Part shown: positions 1 through 47,793 of the stretch, in pieces | How the letters are laid out: each line of letters opens with the position of its first letter | How positions within the stretch are numbered: position 1 is the first letter of the stretch | NCBI GenBank assembly: GCA_016179685.1 | Contig: JACPCR010000071.1 | Span: forward strand, 49,259-113,258 | Length of the DNA stretch: 64,000 nt | Direction: 5' to 3' | Source: Planctomycetota bacterium | GTDB taxonomy: Bacteria > Planctomycetota > PUPC01 > JACPCR01 | Notes under the pieces: model-generated | Database searches by the model: none | Told to the model about the DNA's origin: nothing | What the model saw: the letters and a program-made list of their open reading frames with translations, nothing else | Position numbers and translations under genes: made by a program

Positions 1-1821
1 GTAGGGGCCGACTTGGTGGGCAAGATCGAGGCAGGGATTCCGGAGGATGATCCCCGGAATGCGGCGACGATTGCGGACAACGTGGGGGACAACGTAGGGG
101 ACTGTGCTGGGATGGCGGCGGACATTTTCGAGTCGTATGAGGTAACGATTGTAGCGGCGATGATCCTGGGCTTCGCCAGTTTCGGCCACAAGGGCGTTAT
201 TTTCCCCCTTCTGGTCCGCGCCATCGGCGTCATCGGCAGCATCATCAGCACCTACAGCGTCCGGGCGGGCGAGAAGGACACATCGGACACGGCCTTGCAT
301 TCGGTGCATCGCGGCTTCCTCATCGGAAGCCTGATCAGCGTGGTGGGCTTCTTCGCGCTGGGCTTCGTCTACCTCAAGTTCGACACGGCCTATTTCGCCC
401 AGTACACCACGACGCTGGGAGGGTTCGACGTCAACGGCGATGGGCAGGCCTCGATTGCCGAGCTTCCGGCCTGGGCCAACTTCGGGACGGGATATCTGGA
501 CATGAGGCCAGCCCTGACGTGCCTGATCGGCGTCTTCCTGGCCATGGCCCTGAACAAATGCACAAGCTACTTCACCCACACACAGTACTCGCCCGTCAAG
601 TCCCTAGCGAAATCGTGTCAGACCGGCCATGCCACCAACATCATCCAGGGTTTTGCGGTCGGCTACGAATCCACGGTGATTGCCATCCTGATCATCGCTG
701 GGGCCATTCTGGGGTCGGTCCTGATCTACCAGGGGACGAGTCCGGTCTTCATTGCGTATGGCGTGGCCATGTGCGGCATCGGAATGTTGACGCTGACGGG
801 GAACACGATCTCCATGGACGTCTTCGGGCCGGTGGCGGACAATGCGAACGGGATCGGAGAGATGGGTTACGACAAGGAGGAGATGGAGAGAGAGGAAGCG
901 GGGAGCTACCAGCGGTCGCGGCAGATTTTGGCGGACCTAGATGCCGTGGGCAACACGACGAAGGCGGAGACGAAGGGGATCGCGATCGGATCGGCGGTCA
1001 TCGCCGCGGTCTCCCTGTTCGCTTCGTTCATCGCCGTGATTGCCGTGGGGAGCGAGGACAAGATCGATCAGATGAGTCCGGCGCAATATGCGGCCGAGGC
1101 AGGGAAGCTGACGGTGGCCGAGCCGATGGTCTTCATCGGTTTCCTGATCGGCGGGGCGGTGCCGTTCCTTTTCAGCAGCATGTTGATCCGGGCCGTGGGC
1201 CGGGCAGCCTTCCTCATTGTCAAGGAGTGCCGAATCCAGTTCCGCGACAAGGAAATCTGGGCGGGCACGAAATCGCCGGACTACGGCCGGGTCGTAGGCA
1301 TCTGCACGGCCTCGGCCCAGAAGGAGCTGATCGGGCCGGGGCTGCTGGCCATCATGTGCCCCTTGCTGGTGGGCTTTGCGCTGGGCCCCTATGCGCTGGG
1401 AGGCTTTCTAGCGGGCATGATCCTCGTGGGGCAGCTCTTGGCCGTGTTCATGGCCAACGCGGGCGGGGCCTGGGACAACGCCAAGAAGTCCATCGAGGAT
1501 GGGCTCTATGGCGGAAAGGGCAGCGAGGCCCACAAGGCGGCGGTGACGGGCGACACGGTGGGGGATCCGCTCAAGGATACGGCGGGGCCTGCTGTGAACC
1601 CGTTGATCAAGGTGATGAACATGGTCAGCCTGATCGCCCTGCCGCTGGTGATGAAGTACAATATTCGTGCGAAGACCAGCGAGTTCATGCACGAGGTGAG
1701 CCCGTCGGTCGGTTGGGTGGTCGGCCTGATCGCTCTGGCGGCGATCATCTGGGCGGTCTGGCAGTCGAAACGCGAGACGGAAGAGATGAGGCAGATGGAG
1801 GAGGCGACTCGCCAGGCCTAG
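1..1821 (+). CDS. hppA: Membrane-bound proton-translocating pyrophosphatase, 5' end truncated by window
   Basis: GADLVGKIEAGIPEDDPRNAATIADNVGDNVGDCAGMAADIFESYEVT and GDTVGDPLKDTAGPAVNPLIKVMN signatures; reading frame open to base 1. Confidence 0.95.
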   Translation, partial: VGADLVGKIEAGIPEDDPRNAATIADNVGDNVGDCAGMAADIFESYEVTIVAAMILGFASFGHKGVIFPLLVRAIGVIGSIISTYSVRAGEKDTSDTALHSVHRGFLIGSLISVVGFFALGFVYLKFDTAYFAQYTTTLGGFDVNGDGQASIAELPAWANFGTGYLDMRPALTCLIGVFLAMALNKCTSYFTHTQYSPVKSLAKSCQTGHATNIIQGFAVGYESTVIAILIIAGAILGSVLIYQGTSPVFIAYGVAMCGIGMLTLTGNTISMDVFGPVADNANGIGEMGYDKEEMEREEAGSYQRSRQILADLDAVGNTTKAETKGIAIGSAVIAAVSLFASFIAVIAVGSEDKIDQMSPAQYAAEAGKLTVAEPMVFIGFLIGGAVPFLFSSMLIRAVGRAAFLIVKECRIQFRDKEIWAGTKSPDYGRVVGICTASAQKELIGPGLLAIMCPLLVGFALGPYALGGFLAGMILVGQLLAVFMANAGGAWDNAKKSIEDGLYGGKGSEAHKAAVTGDTVGDPLKDTAGPAVNPLIKVMNMVSLIALPLVMKYNIRAKTSEFMHEVSPSVGWVVGLIALAAIIWAVWQSKRETEEMRQMEEATRQA

Positions 1822-1974
1822 GTGACGAGCTTGCAAGTGCACCCGCACTTCCCCCGGCACGTGTACTCGGTGACGGATTCGCCCGTGCGGGCCCTGCGGG
1901 GATTTCAAGCCACGGTGAGCCCCAATCGCTCATTCCTCCGATATTCCCTTGGAATCGAACTGGAGTTGAAAGCC

Positions 1975-36396: not shown

Positions 36397-36852
36397 GTGC
36401 CCAATTCAAGACCCGAAGAGACGACGCGAGCCAGCCGAGTCAGGGAATGGGTCAAGACCAGGCCGCAGGTCGCCATCTACCTACTCATCCTGCTGGGATA
36501 CGTGGCCCTTTATCAGGCGACCCAGCCTGATGTGGACTACCGCCTTAACATCGTCTTCCAGAAATGGGTAGCCGCCGGAATCTCGGTCTTCTTCATCCTG
36601 GCCATCATCGAACTCATCCGGCGATTTCGGACAAGCCAGGTGATCAAGGTAGTCTTCTGGGCCCTTGCCCTTGTCTATACCCTGGGTGATGTCGCCATCT
36701 TGCTCCGCCGGGTGAACCGATTTCCCTACTTCCCTGAGCTCCTCGTGGGCTGTTATCTAACGGCCATCATTCTGGCCGAATCCGAGAAAAAACCAGCGCG
36801 CACTGGACATCCGGCCGGAAAGAAAAGAGTTAACAAATCCGTTCAGAAATAG
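36397..36852 (+). CDS. Hypothetical membrane protein (3-4 TM)
   Basis: Hydrophobic segments VAIYLLILLGYVALYQ, WVAAGISVFFILAIIELI, VIKVVFWALALVYTLGDVAILL. Confidence 0.55.
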   Translation: MPNSRPEETTRASRVREWVKTRPQVAIYLLILLGYVALYQATQPDVDYRLNIVFQKWVAAGISVFFILAIIELIRRFRTSQVIKVVFWALALVYTLGDVAILLRRVNRFPYFPELLVGCYLTAIILAESEKKPARTGHPAGKKRVNKSVQK

Positions 36853-36873
36853 TGCGCTATTTCTGAACGGATT
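36836..36873. terminator. Perfect 17-bp-stem palindrome between convergent genes, candidate bidirectional terminator
   Basis: aatccgttcagaaatag-tgcg-ctatttctgaacggatt; spans both stop codons; T-tract only on the minus-strand side. Confidence 0.7.
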
Positions 36874-37315
36874 GATTAGACACCTCCTCGTAGAGTGCTC
36901 GCAGGAGAGCCCGGTTTGTACCCACCCGGCGATCTTTCTTGTCCCTTTTCCTGACCTCGTTCTCGGGGCTGCGAACGTAGAAATTGATGCATCTCTGGCC
37001 CAGTCGTAGCTCATCACCGTCCCGCAGCACGACGCGCCGGACCCTGTTCCCGTTCACGAAGGTCCCATTATGACTCCGGTCCTGAATGAAATAGCCACGC
37101 GGACAGATTCGTATCTCGGCGTGGACTCTGGAGATACGTTCGTCATCGCCGAGGATGACATCGCAGTCCGAGGCGCGGCCTATCGTGGTGAGTTCCTTCC
37201 GGACCTTGTACCGCGCCCCCTCATCCACCACTACCAACTCGGCCAGCGGCAACTCCGACCCGGGCGGACGCTGCGGATTTTGCGGGCTATCCGTGTTCGA
37301 GTGATCTGTGGTCAT
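36857..37315 (-). CDS. FHA-domain protein
   Basis: LTTIGRASDCDVILGDDERISRVHAEIRICPRGYFIQDRSHNGTFVNGNRVRRVVLRDGDELRLG. Confidence 0.92.
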   Translation of the reverse strand: MTTDHSNTDSPQNPQRPPGSELPLAELVVVDEGARYKVRKELTTIGRASDCDVILGDDERISRVHAEIRICPRGYFIQDRSHNGTFVNGNRVRRVVLRDGDELRLGQRCINFYVRSPENEVRKRDKKDRRVGTNRALLRALYEEVSNQSVQK

Positions 37316-38240: not shown

Positions 38241-38308
38241 TGAAGCGCCGCCTCAAACCGCCTCGGTGGCGAGTTTGGAAGTGCACCTGCACATCCAGAC
38301 TCGCCTAC
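38236..38308. repeat. Composite copy of stop-codon element plus AAGTGC hairpin element
   Basis: TTAGTGAAGCGCCGCCTCAAACCG followed by GCGAGTTTGGAAGTGCACCTGCACATCCAGACTCGC. Confidence 0.55.
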
Positions 38309-39798
38309 TCCTTTTTCCTTTCAGGAGAAGGTTCCTGCAAGAAAAAACGGTCGAACTCTTCAAGTCCCTCCGCCTTCTCGCCGAGGTATTCCACGTAAAG
38401 GATGCGGGCGCCGCGGGGCCCGATCTGAGACCAGCTCCGCAGGCTCAAGACGCCTTTCAGCTTGCAGGTGACGGACGATGCGGTCGCCGAGACGACGGTC
38501 CCTTCCCCGAGGCCGAGCGATGCGGGCAGCGGGCGCTCCCCGCCCGCGGGAGCGTTGATCGCCTGGACCGCCTCTCCATGCAGTTTTTCCAGCGTCTCGA
38601 CCTGGCGCATGCGGCCCTCCAGCGTTTCACGGTGCGCCGCCCGCTTCAGCAGGTCACGGGTGGTGCGAATGACCTGGAGTGCGGAGGCGAAACGGAATTT
38701 TTCGCTCAAGCCTCTCGCATTGGCTTCCGCCTTTTGGGCCAGTTCTTTTTCCCGGCGCTCCGCCTCGATCTCCTCCGGCTCCGGTTCGGCCGGCAGGTTG
38801 CCCTGCGGCGAGAGGGCCAGAATCTCCCGCGTGAGAAGCCCCTGGAGGATCGAATCGGGGAATTTTTTCTGGAGATTTCTCAGTAAGCGAAGGGCAGAGG
38901 ATGGTTTATCGGCCGCGAGGGCCCGGGCCTGCGGCACGATCTCTTCCGCCTCGCGGATCAGGTCCCGGAGGGCAAGGACCCGCGGCACATCCGCAAAGAA
39001 CTGGTTGATGTCGTCCAGGACGCGATGGACCGCCTCGAGGTCGCCGCTGTCCAGGACGCCGCGCACGTGCTGGATGAAGGCATCGGCCGACTGGACGAGT
39101 TGGGGCTTGAGCCGGTCGCGCTGTCTTTCGGCCCGCCGGACCCAGGCCGCGTATCGGCCGTCCGCATGCTGGCGTCGGAACTGTTCCCAGGCCTCGAGGG
39201 CACGGACGGGCTGGGCCTCCCTGCAGCCCTCGGTGAAGGCGAGGGTCTCGTAGAATCGTTGGCCTGCGGGCCCGGCCGCGAGCCATGCGGCGGCGGGGCC
39301 CGGATCGATACCTGGTCCGCCGGTGAGCCGATCGACCAGGGCCATCAACTGGCCTATGCGATACGGGGCATGCAGAGCGGGGTCGGGCCCCGACCAGTTC
39401 TGCAACCGGTCGAGCTGTTGAGGAGGCGGGTAGAGCGCGGCGTCGAAGCCGGGGTGCATGAAGCAAGCGAGGGACACGGCGGAGGCGAGGAGGAGGCCTG
39501 CGGCGGCGCCGAACGACGCCCCGAGGATTTGGTCCACAGGAGTGATGAGGAACAGCTCGTGGGACGTCCAGTATCGGGCTGCGAGCAATCGTCCGGCGGC
39601 GAAGGTCAGTCCCGCTGACAGCCAGAAGCCGACGAGTCGGACCGGAATTTCTGGCCATCGCATGCCCTGGATCAAGCAATCCTGCAGGGGCCCGGAGACG
39701 AGGAGAGCGACGAGGATCGAGACGCCGAGGATGACCGCGTGTACCCAGGCCGTGAAGGCTCGCAGCAGATATCCGGCGTAGGCCAGGCTGGCGATCAA
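38305..39798 (-). CDS. CvpA-family-like membrane protein with long C-terminal coiled-coil region
   Basis: N-terminal TM segments with ILGASFGAAAGLLLASAVS; helical C-terminus. Confidence 0.55.
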   Translation of the reverse strand: MIASLAYAGYLLRAFTAWVHAVILGVSILVALLVSGPLQDCLIQGMRWPEIPVRLVGFWLSAGLTFAAGRLLAARYWTSHELFLITPVDQILGASFGAAAGLLLASAVSLACFMHPGFDAALYPPPQQLDRLQNWSGPDPALHAPYRIGQLMALVDRLTGGPGIDPGPAAAWLAAGPAGQRFYETLAFTEGCREAQPVRALEAWEQFRRQHADGRYAAWVRRAERQRDRLKPQLVQSADAFIQHVRGVLDSGDLEAVHRVLDDINQFFADVPRVLALRDLIREAEEIVPQARALAADKPSSALRLLRNLQKKFPDSILQGLLTREILALSPQGNLPAEPEPEEIEAERREKELAQKAEANARGLSEKFRFASALQVIRTTRDLLKRAAHRETLEGRMRQVETLEKLHGEAVQAINAPAGGERPLPASLGLGEGTVVSATASSVTCKLKGVLSLRSWSQIGPRGARILYVEYLGEKAEGLEEFDRFFLQEPSPERKKE

Positions 39799-41698: not shown

Positions 41699-41775
41699 GT
41701 TTGAGGCCGCCCTACGGCGGCTTCGCTGTTACACGCATGCGGAAGTGCACCCGCACTTCCGCATGCGTGTACTAG
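41699..41775. repeat. Composite of truncated GTCGGTTTGAGG element and perfect 18-bp-stem AAGTGC-ACCC-GCACTT hairpin
   Basis: acacgcatgcggaagtgc-accc-gcacttccgcatgcgtgt at 41731-41770. Confidence 0.85.
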
Positions 41776-43860: not shown

Positions 43861-43940
43861 GGAGACCCTTGGCGGCTGTAAAAGACGAGTGAGCAAGTGC
43901 ACCCACACTTCTGAACAGGGATAGTAGCCGCGGAGCACCC

Positions 43941-44132
43941 TTACACATACGACTCGAGGGAACGGTCCGGAAGTACTTGTTCCGGCTTCAATCCCAGGAC
44001 TTCGCTCAAACAGAGCTGAAGAGCGCCCCACGCCTCTCGGGGTGTCCATCGGTTGAATCGTTCGGCGAGCGCCCCATAGTTTCTGAATCGGTCCTCGCAT
44101 TCGAGGACCACCTCAACGAGTTCCAGCCCCAT
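43941..44132 (-). CDS. Small protein, possibly acyl-carrier-like
   Basis: [16 protein letters not shown] resembles a GLDSVELV-type ACP segment; 63 aa. Confidence 0.3.
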
Positions 44133-44259
44133 GAAAACTCTCCTCCGTAGTGAAGCACCGGCCTCGACTTGCCTACTCCGACGCGCCTGCTACGCTACTT
44201 GCAGCGCACACCAGTGCTCCCCCCGTCCCGACGGCCTGCCGGGAGGCCAGGCCCGGAAG

Positions 44260-44304
44260 TCCCTCCCAAGCTTGTCCGTGGGCGACCTGTCCCGCCGGGA
44301 GGGA
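44260..44304. repeat. Imperfect hairpin, G-type (TCCCTCCC...GGGAGGGA)
   Basis: 8-bp outer stem; left arm similar to 44584 and 49927 sequences. Confidence 0.5.
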
Positions 44305-44585
44305 TTCTAACGGAAACGGGATGCCCACGAGAAACAGGGCCAGAAGGACAAGCCCAGGAGGCAGGCTTGCCTCTCACTCTCGTCCCCATGGGAAGGGTTC
44401 TGCGAATTCCGAGCGGCTGCGCAAACGGGCAAGCGCCCATCGCGATCCATTTCATCATAAGTTGCGGCAGGCGCTTCGCTACTGGACTTGAAGCATGGGA
44501 AGGAGGTTAACCGCGGATGACCGCGGATAACGCGGATTCCTTTTTCCTCTTGTCCGCGGCATCCCTTGGGTCAGCCTCCCACGTC

Positions 44586-44640
44586 CCTCCCGAACTTGCC
44601 CCTGCGGGAGGATCCCTCCCGCAGGGGCAAGTTCGGGAGG
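44586..44640. repeat. Perfect 26-bp-stem hairpin, 3-nt loop
   Basis: cctcccgaacttgcccctgcgggagg-atc-cctcccgcaggggcaagttcgggagg. Confidence 0.95.
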
Positions 44641-44660
44641 ACAAGCTCGGCGGACTTGGC

Positions 44661-44710
44661 CTAGTAGACGAGTTCGCAAGTGCAGCCGCACTTGCGAACT
44701 CGTCTACTAG
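44661..44710. repeat. Perfect 23-bp-stem hairpin, 4-nt loop, AAGTGC family
   Basis: ctagtagacgagttcgcaagtgc-agcc-gcacttgcgaactcgtctactag. Confidence 0.95.
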
Positions 44711-44757
44711 AGTGCTTCAGAATGGAAGTGCCAGGACACTTCCGTTTCTGAAATACT
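44711..44757. repeat. Third, imperfect hairpin in tandem
   Basis: agtgcttcagaatggaagtg-ccagga-cacttccgtttctgaaatact. Confidence 0.75.
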
Positions 44758-44777
44758 CGGATGCTTTGCCCCTCACG

Positions 44778-45083
44778 ATGAAAAAGCGCCCAAACCGTCA
44801 ACGGACCTCTCCGCCCTCTCAGCGACGACCTGTAGCCTCCATGCACGGTACTGCGGTCTGGCTGCCGTGGGTTTCGTTCTTACTGGCCCTGCTGGCCCAA
44901 CCCGAGGCCGCAGGCTTTGCGCCCGGCCTGTCCGATCTGCTCCTCCGCTCCGGCCGGAAGCTTCCGGAAGTCCGCCGTGAGGTCGCCGTCTCCGTCTGCA
45001 ACGCGGCCGAGCCGCACCCGCTTCAGGTGTTCGTTTATGAAGGAGGAAAACAGTTCTTCCCATGCAAAATCCCGAAAAGGTGA
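44778..45083 (+). CDS. Hypothetical small exported protein
   Basis: Hydrophobic LPWVSFLLALLAQPEAAG segment; overlaps downstream ORF start by 22 nt. Confidence 0.3.
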   Translation: MKKRPNRQRTSPPSQRRPVASMHGTAVWLPWVSFLLALLAQPEAAGFAPGLSDLLLRSGRKLPEVRREVAVSVCNAAEPHPLQVFVYEGGKQFFPCKIPKR

Positions 45084-47066: not shown

Positions 47067-47113
47067 TTGAAAACCTACGGGACTGACGTATAATCCCGAA
47101 TTTGATATACGTC
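47067..47113 (+). promoter_or_regulatory. Sigma70-like promoter overlapped by 8-bp inverted repeat operator upstream of TA module
   Basis: TTGAAA (47067) - 16 bp - TATAAT (47089); GACGTATA-N13-TATACGTC at 47085-47113. Confidence 0.6.
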
Positions 47114-47137
47114 TCATGTTTGGGGCATAACGATTTC

Positions 47138-47383
47138 ATGCAGACCAAGTTAACGTTACGGCTTGAAAGCAGGTTGATCGAGGCTGCGAAGGCCTTCGCA
47201 AAGGAACATGGCAAGTCGCTCTCCCAGATCGTCTCGGATTACTTTGCATCCTTGACTGGAGACCGGGATCAGCGAGCGGAGGATGAACTGACACCTATTG
47301 TGAGAGCACTGAAAGGCACGCTTCGAGGTACGGGCATGCGCGTTGATAATTATCGTCAGCATCTTGAGAAAAAGCACTTGTGA
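47138..47383 (+). CDS. Antitoxin (DUF6364-like, ribbon-helix-helix-type)
   Basis: MQTKLTLRLESRLIEAAKAFAKEHGKSLSQIVSDYF; overlaps PIN toxin start. Confidence 0.75.
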   Translation: MQTKLTLRLESRLIEAAKAFAKEHGKSLSQIVSDYFASLTGDRDQRAEDELTPIVRALKGTLRGTGMRVDNYRQHLEKKHL

Positions 47384-47793
47384 TTGTTTTTTTCGATACA
47401 AACGTGGTCTTGGATGTCTTGTTTGACCGAAAGCCCTTCTCCGATGCTGCTGCGGAGCTTTTCTGCAAGGTGGAGAATAAACAAATTACGGGGTACCTGG
47501 GATCAACAGCCATTACTACCATCCACTACCTGGCCAGAAAGAGCAAGAGCAGCAAGGATGCTGAAGCAGACATCCGTAAACTACTTTTGCTGTTCGAGGT
47601 TGCGCCCATCAGTAAGCCCGTCCTTCTCGCTGCCTTGGAGCTTCCTTTCCAGGATTACGAGGATGCGGTCCTCCACGAGGCCGCCGTAACCGTCCGATCG
47701 GAAGGGATTGTCACGCGCAACAGGGCTGATTTTCGTCAGTCCAAATTGCCCGTTTATTCTCCGGCTGAGCTGGTCGCTTTGCTCAATAAGTGA
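47380..47793 (+). CDS. PIN-domain (VapC-like) toxin
   Basis: MIVFFDTNVVLDVLFDRKPFSDAA...; YEDAVLHEAA; GIVTRNRADF; GTG start overlapping the TGA of the antitoxin. Confidence 0.85.
   Translation: MIVFFDTNVVLDVLFDRKPFSDAAAELFCKVENKQITGYLGSTAITTIHYLARKSKSSKDAEADIRKLLLLFEVAPISKPVLLAALELPFQDYEDAVLHEAAVTVRSEGIVTRNRADFRQSKLPVYSPAELVALLNK

Follow-up and report, generated by a model that had tools for sequence, protein, structure and literature searches.

Dispersed, REP/MITE-like palindromes of probable mobile origin pile up in the intergenic gap beside hisF in a Planctomycetota genome

The locus lies in a 64,000-nt stretch of a Planctomycetota contig, hereafter called the window, and consists of an island of hairpins at positions 43886–44760. 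Its minus-strand flank is hisF, as a sequence-only reading of the same DNA had proposed and as matches to PF00977 and TIGR00735 bore out. The flanking open reading frame (ORF) on the plus strand matched nothing in Pfam, NCBIfam or PDB, leaving the GH127 label given by that reading unconfirmed. With hisF on the minus strand and the other flanking gene on the plus strand, the island is a divergent intergenic stretch. A 63-aa minus-strand ORF (43941–44132) sits where an "ACP-like" gene had been placed.

The island hairpins are by far beyond chance: folded as DNA, positions 44560–44780 (221 nt) gave −82.6 kcal/mol, compared with −33.2 ± 3.7 for shuffled sequences (z = −13.4). A hairpin search found two perfect long stems, of 26 and 23 bp, and an imperfect third hairpin directly adjoining the second, all exactly where the sequence-only reading had located them (Table 1). 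Two other structures that it had named also exist; the TCCCTCCC..GGGAGGGA structure at 44260–44304, however, has 8-bp arms lying ~29 nt apart, and the AAGTGC copy at 43895 (tip AAGTGC-ACCC-ACACTT) pairs only at its tip because its arms stem from two different subfamilies. The region had further been called extreme for an intergenic sequence, but hairpins with stems of ≥11 bp numbered 62 in 455 kb of the same genome, whereas a Markov control gave 6; long hairpins thus characterize the genome as a whole and are not peculiar to the island. The suggestion of a REP-like insertion hot spot fared better, since the island resolved into members of two dispersed palindromic repeat families, designated family A and family B.

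Table 1 Repeat elements of the island and related family A copies elsewhere in the window.
Feature	Position	Strand	Description
Family A chimera	1821..1864	+	Left arm of beta type, right arm resembling alpha2; tip (1835-1850) perfect
Partly decayed family A copy	38262..38311	+	46.3 bits
Family A solo element	41726..41775	+	Alpha2-type arms; 19-bp perfect stem; 65.3 bits
Family A chimera	43881..43924	+	Left arm beta-type (..AGACGAGTGAGC), right arm alpha1-type (CTGAACAGGGATAG)
Decayed family-B-like stretch	44253..44304	+	TCCCTCCCAAGCTTGTCC ... GGGAGGGA; likeness to family B consensus, unscored
Family B unit	44345..44361	-	CCTCCTGGGCTTGTCCT; family B motif scan
Family B doublet	44586..44640	.	Two CCTCCCGAACTTGCCCCTGCGGGAGG units head to head; 26-bp stem (44586-44611/44615-44640), 100% paired, 3-nt loop
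Family A solo element	44661..44710	+	CTA foot, 44-bp core palindrome, TAG foot; 76.5 bits to model R1; 23-bp stem (44661-44683/44688-44710), 100% paired, 4-nt loop
Core palindrome of the 44661..44710 element	44664-44707		20-bp stem, loop AGCC; beta-type arms GTAGACGAGTTCGC
Degenerate family A copy adjoining the 44661 element	44711..44757	-	14.7 bits; tips 48 bp apart

The family A palindrome spans 44 bp; its tip, AAGTGC-N4-GCACTT, is conserved, and its feet are CTA and TAG. Its unit reads C-TA, then GTA-(variable)-AAGTGC-ACCC-GCACTT-(variable)-TAC, then TA-G, and folds into a stem of 20 bp closed by a loop of 4 bases. Perfect tips occur 216 times in the 7.2-Mb genome, compared with a single occurrence of the reversed pattern. 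The sample used for detailed work, 1.59 Mb picked partly for known matches and therefore not random, contained 66 perfect tips and, with relaxed tips, 149 copies in all. Scaling from the 216 tips with this partly chosen sample, we estimated ~490 family A copies genome-wide.

The arms of these copies vary while remaining matched. Among 59 well-paired copies there were 47 distinct stems. In unselected copies with perfect tips, lower-stem positions were paired in 0.74–0.91 of cases; pairing dropped at the CTA/TAG foot and lay at background level beyond it. A sizeable minority was mismatched in the lower stem (≤11 of 14 pairs in 20 of the 66 perfect-tip copies), and partly paired copies showed no gradient of pairing from the tip outward. 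In an alignment of 81 copies, 91.6% of cells were paired, compared with 31–44% in slid controls, and 356 two-sided changes were counted, compared with 98 after shuffling; as these copies had been chosen for pairing, the unselected perfect-tip table is the fairer test, and the two agree. G–U pairs were nearly absent from the lower stem of the aligned copies. Two-sided stem changes with almost no G–U indicate that the constraint acts on DNA and not on RNA. Bacterial chromosomes normally lose long perfect palindromes, and the remark of the sequence-only reading that such palindromes are unstable unless maintained proved apt, as stem pairing is clearly maintained here; either selection favoring the hairpin or correction of the palindrome keeps it up.

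We then examined the placement of family A. None of 107 assignable copies fell inside genes called with a purpose-written gene finder, in sequence that is 82% coding. Gaps between convergent genes were slightly over-used (22 copies observed, 14 expected), and divergent gaps held copies at the expected rate. Outside this genome, the count of perfect tips never exceeded three in 296 further genomes from the phylum, and a covariance model found family A in its own genome only, besides one borderline match. The exact 20-base version occurred once, without a continued stem and apparently by chance, in a collection of 85,462 species from which the own genome was possibly left out. A viral collection yielded 15 loose-pattern matches, with no continued stem in those inspected, and a plasmid collection yielded no family A match. 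The expansion of family A is species- or genus-specific. DNA uptake sequences were rejected as a candidate: the Haemophilus-type sequence AAGTGCGGT, an over-abundant solitary 9-mer where it serves in uptake, occurs only 3 times in 1.59 Mb on both strands.

Family B (CCTCCCGRACTTGTCCC) makes the 26-bp hairpin of the island as a head-to-head doublet, in which two copies of CCTCCCG(A/G)ACTTG(T/C)CCC...GGGAGG face each other. Allowing ≤3 mismatches, its motif was found 77 times in the 1.59-Mb sample, compared with 9 times in a Markov control, and it often adjoins family A or sits inside composites. Family B units also line up in tandem arrays, repeating CCTCCCGGACCTGT every 14 or 15 bp, as at L109 13481, L095 742–770 and L050 8047–8076.

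Family A copies also combine into larger units. Facing pairs bound a common core that was found ~40 times. The recurrent composite comprises an alpha hairpin (arms GTATCCCTGTTCAT or GTACACGTGTAAGG), TAGCCGGAAACCC, the core, GGGTTTCCCATA and a beta hairpin (arms GTAGACGAGTTCGC), and at six loci the two tips are separated by 149 bp. It is a 199-bp miniature element in which each inverted-repeat end holds a full palindrome, alpha and beta at opposite ends, and it has the generic features of a MITE, being short and non-coding, bounded by terminal inverted repeats and dispersed in many copies. Among the facing hairpin pairs of the 1.59-Mb sample, none was an autonomous composite with an ORF. Adjoining head-to-tail pairs had tips exactly 46 bp apart at six loci elsewhere; the 44661 and 44711 elements of the island form such a pair, slightly decayed, at 48 bp. 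GAAAC, mostly inside GGAAACC, stands beside ~30% of family A copies on one side and beside none on both. In chimeras, including those at 43895 and 1835, the tip is perfect or nearly so and links arms from different subfamilies. Alpha1 and alpha2 arms dominate composite ends, and alpha3, the commonest alpha among solo copies, is rare there; among clearly classified chimeras, alpha1/beta and alpha2/beta occur and alpha3/beta never does, albeit in small numbers. These chimera types, few as they are, are consistent with the two tips of one composite having recombined. Elsewhere in the window, a 22-bp hairpin (36831–36878; AATCCGTTCAGAAATAG tgcg CTATTTCTGAACGGATT) bears the GTTCAG arm end of the alpha types; with AAATAG in place of the usual tip, it is possibly a tip variant of family A.

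Next, we surveyed candidate transposases in the genome, which is ~90% complete. Searches with PF01797 and NF047646 identified two Y1 (HUH) transposases above the NCBIfam RAYT cut-off, plus several weaker relatives, and DDE_3 (PF13358) had no match. Y1 genes of this genome lie at C6:50327, C6:53200, C27:6180, C50:14821 and C84:203901. RAYT-like genes at L168 and L169 are flanked by perfect palindromes carrying a GTAGTA tag close to the CTAGTA foot of family A; no family A hairpin lay within ~1.5 kb of any Y1 locus found. The cleavage sites of TnpAREP proteins are CT or CA beside a hairpin; a foot tetranucleotide appears to guide these enzymes, one group of which works with perfect palindromes (PMC8266576). 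Several Y1 loci had features of their own. The two RAYT-like genes with their GTAGTA-tagged REPs (L168 640–2178 and L169 121–1323; contig C6, 50–54 kb) lie ~3 kb apart, and one of them reads in frame inside an ORF that, by our impression of the sequence, resembles a DNA methyltransferase-type gene, apparently as an insertion. At L005 1219–1959 (C84:203901), a Y1 transposase domain is fused to a LexA-type N-terminal DNA-binding domain, without obvious flanking palindromic repeats. An IS200-like gene at L004 1225–1838 (C40) has flanking inverted palindromes with the foot GTAGTACGCCCC, near the CTAGTAC foot of family A.

Family A shares features with several known systems. REP/BIME sequences have reported stems of 6–13 bp, fall into subfamilies whose stem changes are complementary, also occur as dimers and mosaics, and are often species-restricted (PMC3733652). 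Family A is likewise high-copy, intergenic and palindromic with complementary-stem subfamilies, it occurs in the same genome as RAYTs with GTAGTA-tagged REPs, as in REPtrons, and it answers to the description of a REP as a short, high-copy, mainly intergenic palindrome (216 tips; 0/107 in genes). Its stem, however, measures 20 bp and not 6–13 bp; CTAG stands on both sides with GTA paired (CTA-GTA/TAC-TAG), whereas REPs have a one-sided, unpaired GTAG; its conserved part is the tip instead of a one-sided tag; and it flanks no cognate RAYT gene within ~1.5 kb of the Y1 loci. Because both the one-sided unpaired GTAG and the flanked RAYT failed to appear, we classified family A as REP-like and not as REP. 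TIRYT/TIRtrons, in which terminal inverted repeats (TIRs), some of them doubly palindromic, bound a Y1 transposase, recall the 199-bp composite, whose inverted-repeat ends each hold a complete palindrome, and TIRs too form dispersed repeat families (PMC3733652); in contrast to these, no Y1 gene lay inside any composite among the facing pairs of the sample, and the TIR motif GGGGWSAS was not seen in the family A consensus. REPINs are also non-autonomous palindromic units with hundreds of dispersed copies, and family B doublets resemble the REP doublets that form a hairpin, but a REPIN comprises two REPs around a spacer, whereas family A is a single self-contained 44-bp palindrome. Mitochondrial repetitive or double hairpin-forming elements are dispersed, single or tandem, intergenic hairpins (PMC2800124), as are those of family A; they belong to another genome with other enzymes, and in sponges the stems are fixed and the loops vary, the opposite of family A. 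DDE MITEs with a TA target are similarly TA-flanked miniature inverted-repeat elements, but this genome has no IS630-type transposase and the center of family A is its most conserved part. What sets family A apart from the families described so far is a stem of 20 bp that covaries, a tip that is conserved and a foot that is symmetric.

Taken together, we favor, with a probability of roughly 0.62, the reading that the island is a pile-up of non-autonomous REP/MITE-like mobile palindromes and not a single functional locus, with a Y1 (HUH) transposase as the probable mover. The unit would spread as a folded single-strand hairpin, and a trans-acting Y1 transposase of the IS200/RAYT/TIRYT group would recognize it by tip and foot (CT-AGTA; cf. 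the GTAGTA of REPtrons in the same genome). Such recognition would tolerate any change in arm sequence that preserves the match between the arms and would hold tip and foot constant, the pattern seen in family A. Solo copies with swapped arms probably arose when 199-bp elements collapsed through recombination between their two tips, and the island may be a landing site re-used by later insertions. The identity of the transposase is a guess, given that no Y1 gene flanked by family A and no autonomous composite was found. The presence of CTAG at each end, in place of a single unpaired GTAG, also counts against this reading. Transposition itself is what we infer from the sequence; the sampled 1.59 Mb held no convincing empty insertion site, paralogous ones included.

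Other processes could produce parts of this pattern. Replication template switching, in which quasipalindrome correction copies one arm onto the other, makes quasipalindromes perfect (PMC7202029) and would render the perfection of the stems unselected. It accounts for two-sided changes with almost no G–U, and outer and inner feet can indeed change jointly (L138); the sharp end of pairing at the element boundary and the absence of a gradient away from the tip nonetheless argue against it as the sole cause, the 20 mismatched copies among 66 remain uncorrected, and dispersal is left unexplained. We therefore consider this account doubtful, although such correction may act alongside the spread of mobile repeats and help keep stems perfect. 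A DDE transposase of the IS630/Tc1 type or another kind, inserting 44-bp or 199-bp elements into CTAG with duplication of TA (C-TA-[element]-TA-G), would explain why TA dominates both outer dinucleotides and why the head-to-tail step of 46 equals 44 + 2. We judge it unlikely in a genome without a DDE_3 protein, the more so as the outer dinucleotides of composites were equal in only 2 of 17 cases where the flanks were not both TA, and as a classic MITE would conserve its outer ends most and not a central tip.

The very stable folds might also suggest a structured RNA, a terminator or an mRNA-stabilizing element serving hisF or the divergent gene, in keeping with the stable RNA that the sequence-only reading had raised. 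This is highly improbable: the flanking genes diverge, the long hairpins lack a T-tract and none of the three appeared in the terminator listing, G–U pairs are nearly absent, and genome-wide the copies are mildly enriched in convergent gaps while divergent gaps hold no excess. Rfam searches at gathering and relaxed thresholds returned sub-threshold matches only, nearly all to miRNA precursor models, which can be matched by any hairpin. That the palindromes are inverted chimeras created by assembly or amplification, the refutation foreseen by the same reading, is hardly credible, even though the assembly has 137 contigs, palindromes are error-prone and several family A copies lie near contig ends (L076, L083, L093 and L096). 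Fixed 44-bp boundaries, a tip common to dozens of loci with covarying arms, fixed spacings of 46 and 149 bp and exclusively intergenic placement speak against it; the boundaries, tip and spacings recur at many independent loci, a pattern not expected of chimeric reads.

Within the preferred reading of mobile palindromes, a bolder version, to which we give little credence, makes family A a new class in which only tip and foot are recognized by a transposase not yet recognized, and the 14-bp arm is free provided that it is self-complementary. Arms would be continually re-homogenized after tip-to-tip recombination, and alpha/beta chimeras, the bacterial equivalent of solo LTRs, would be intermediates left as 199-bp elements collapse. 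A genome that keeps hundreds of long palindromes with changing yet matching stems offers a natural data set for asking what holds palindromes in place, selection on a transposase substrate or template switching in replication. It also widens the range of REP-like elements to far longer stems and a signature centered on the tip, the hisF locus itself being an ordinary case of repeat insertions in an intergenic gap.

The same genome carries other abundant dispersed repeats; L036 12050–12240, for example, contains CTTCTCAATAAGTTCGGGG, AAATCCGCTGCGCC..CGCGGATTTCAG and tandem ACACCTGACACC. In the window, at 47102–47793, adjacent genes encode a DUF6364 protein and a PIN-domain protein, likely a toxin–antitoxin pair.
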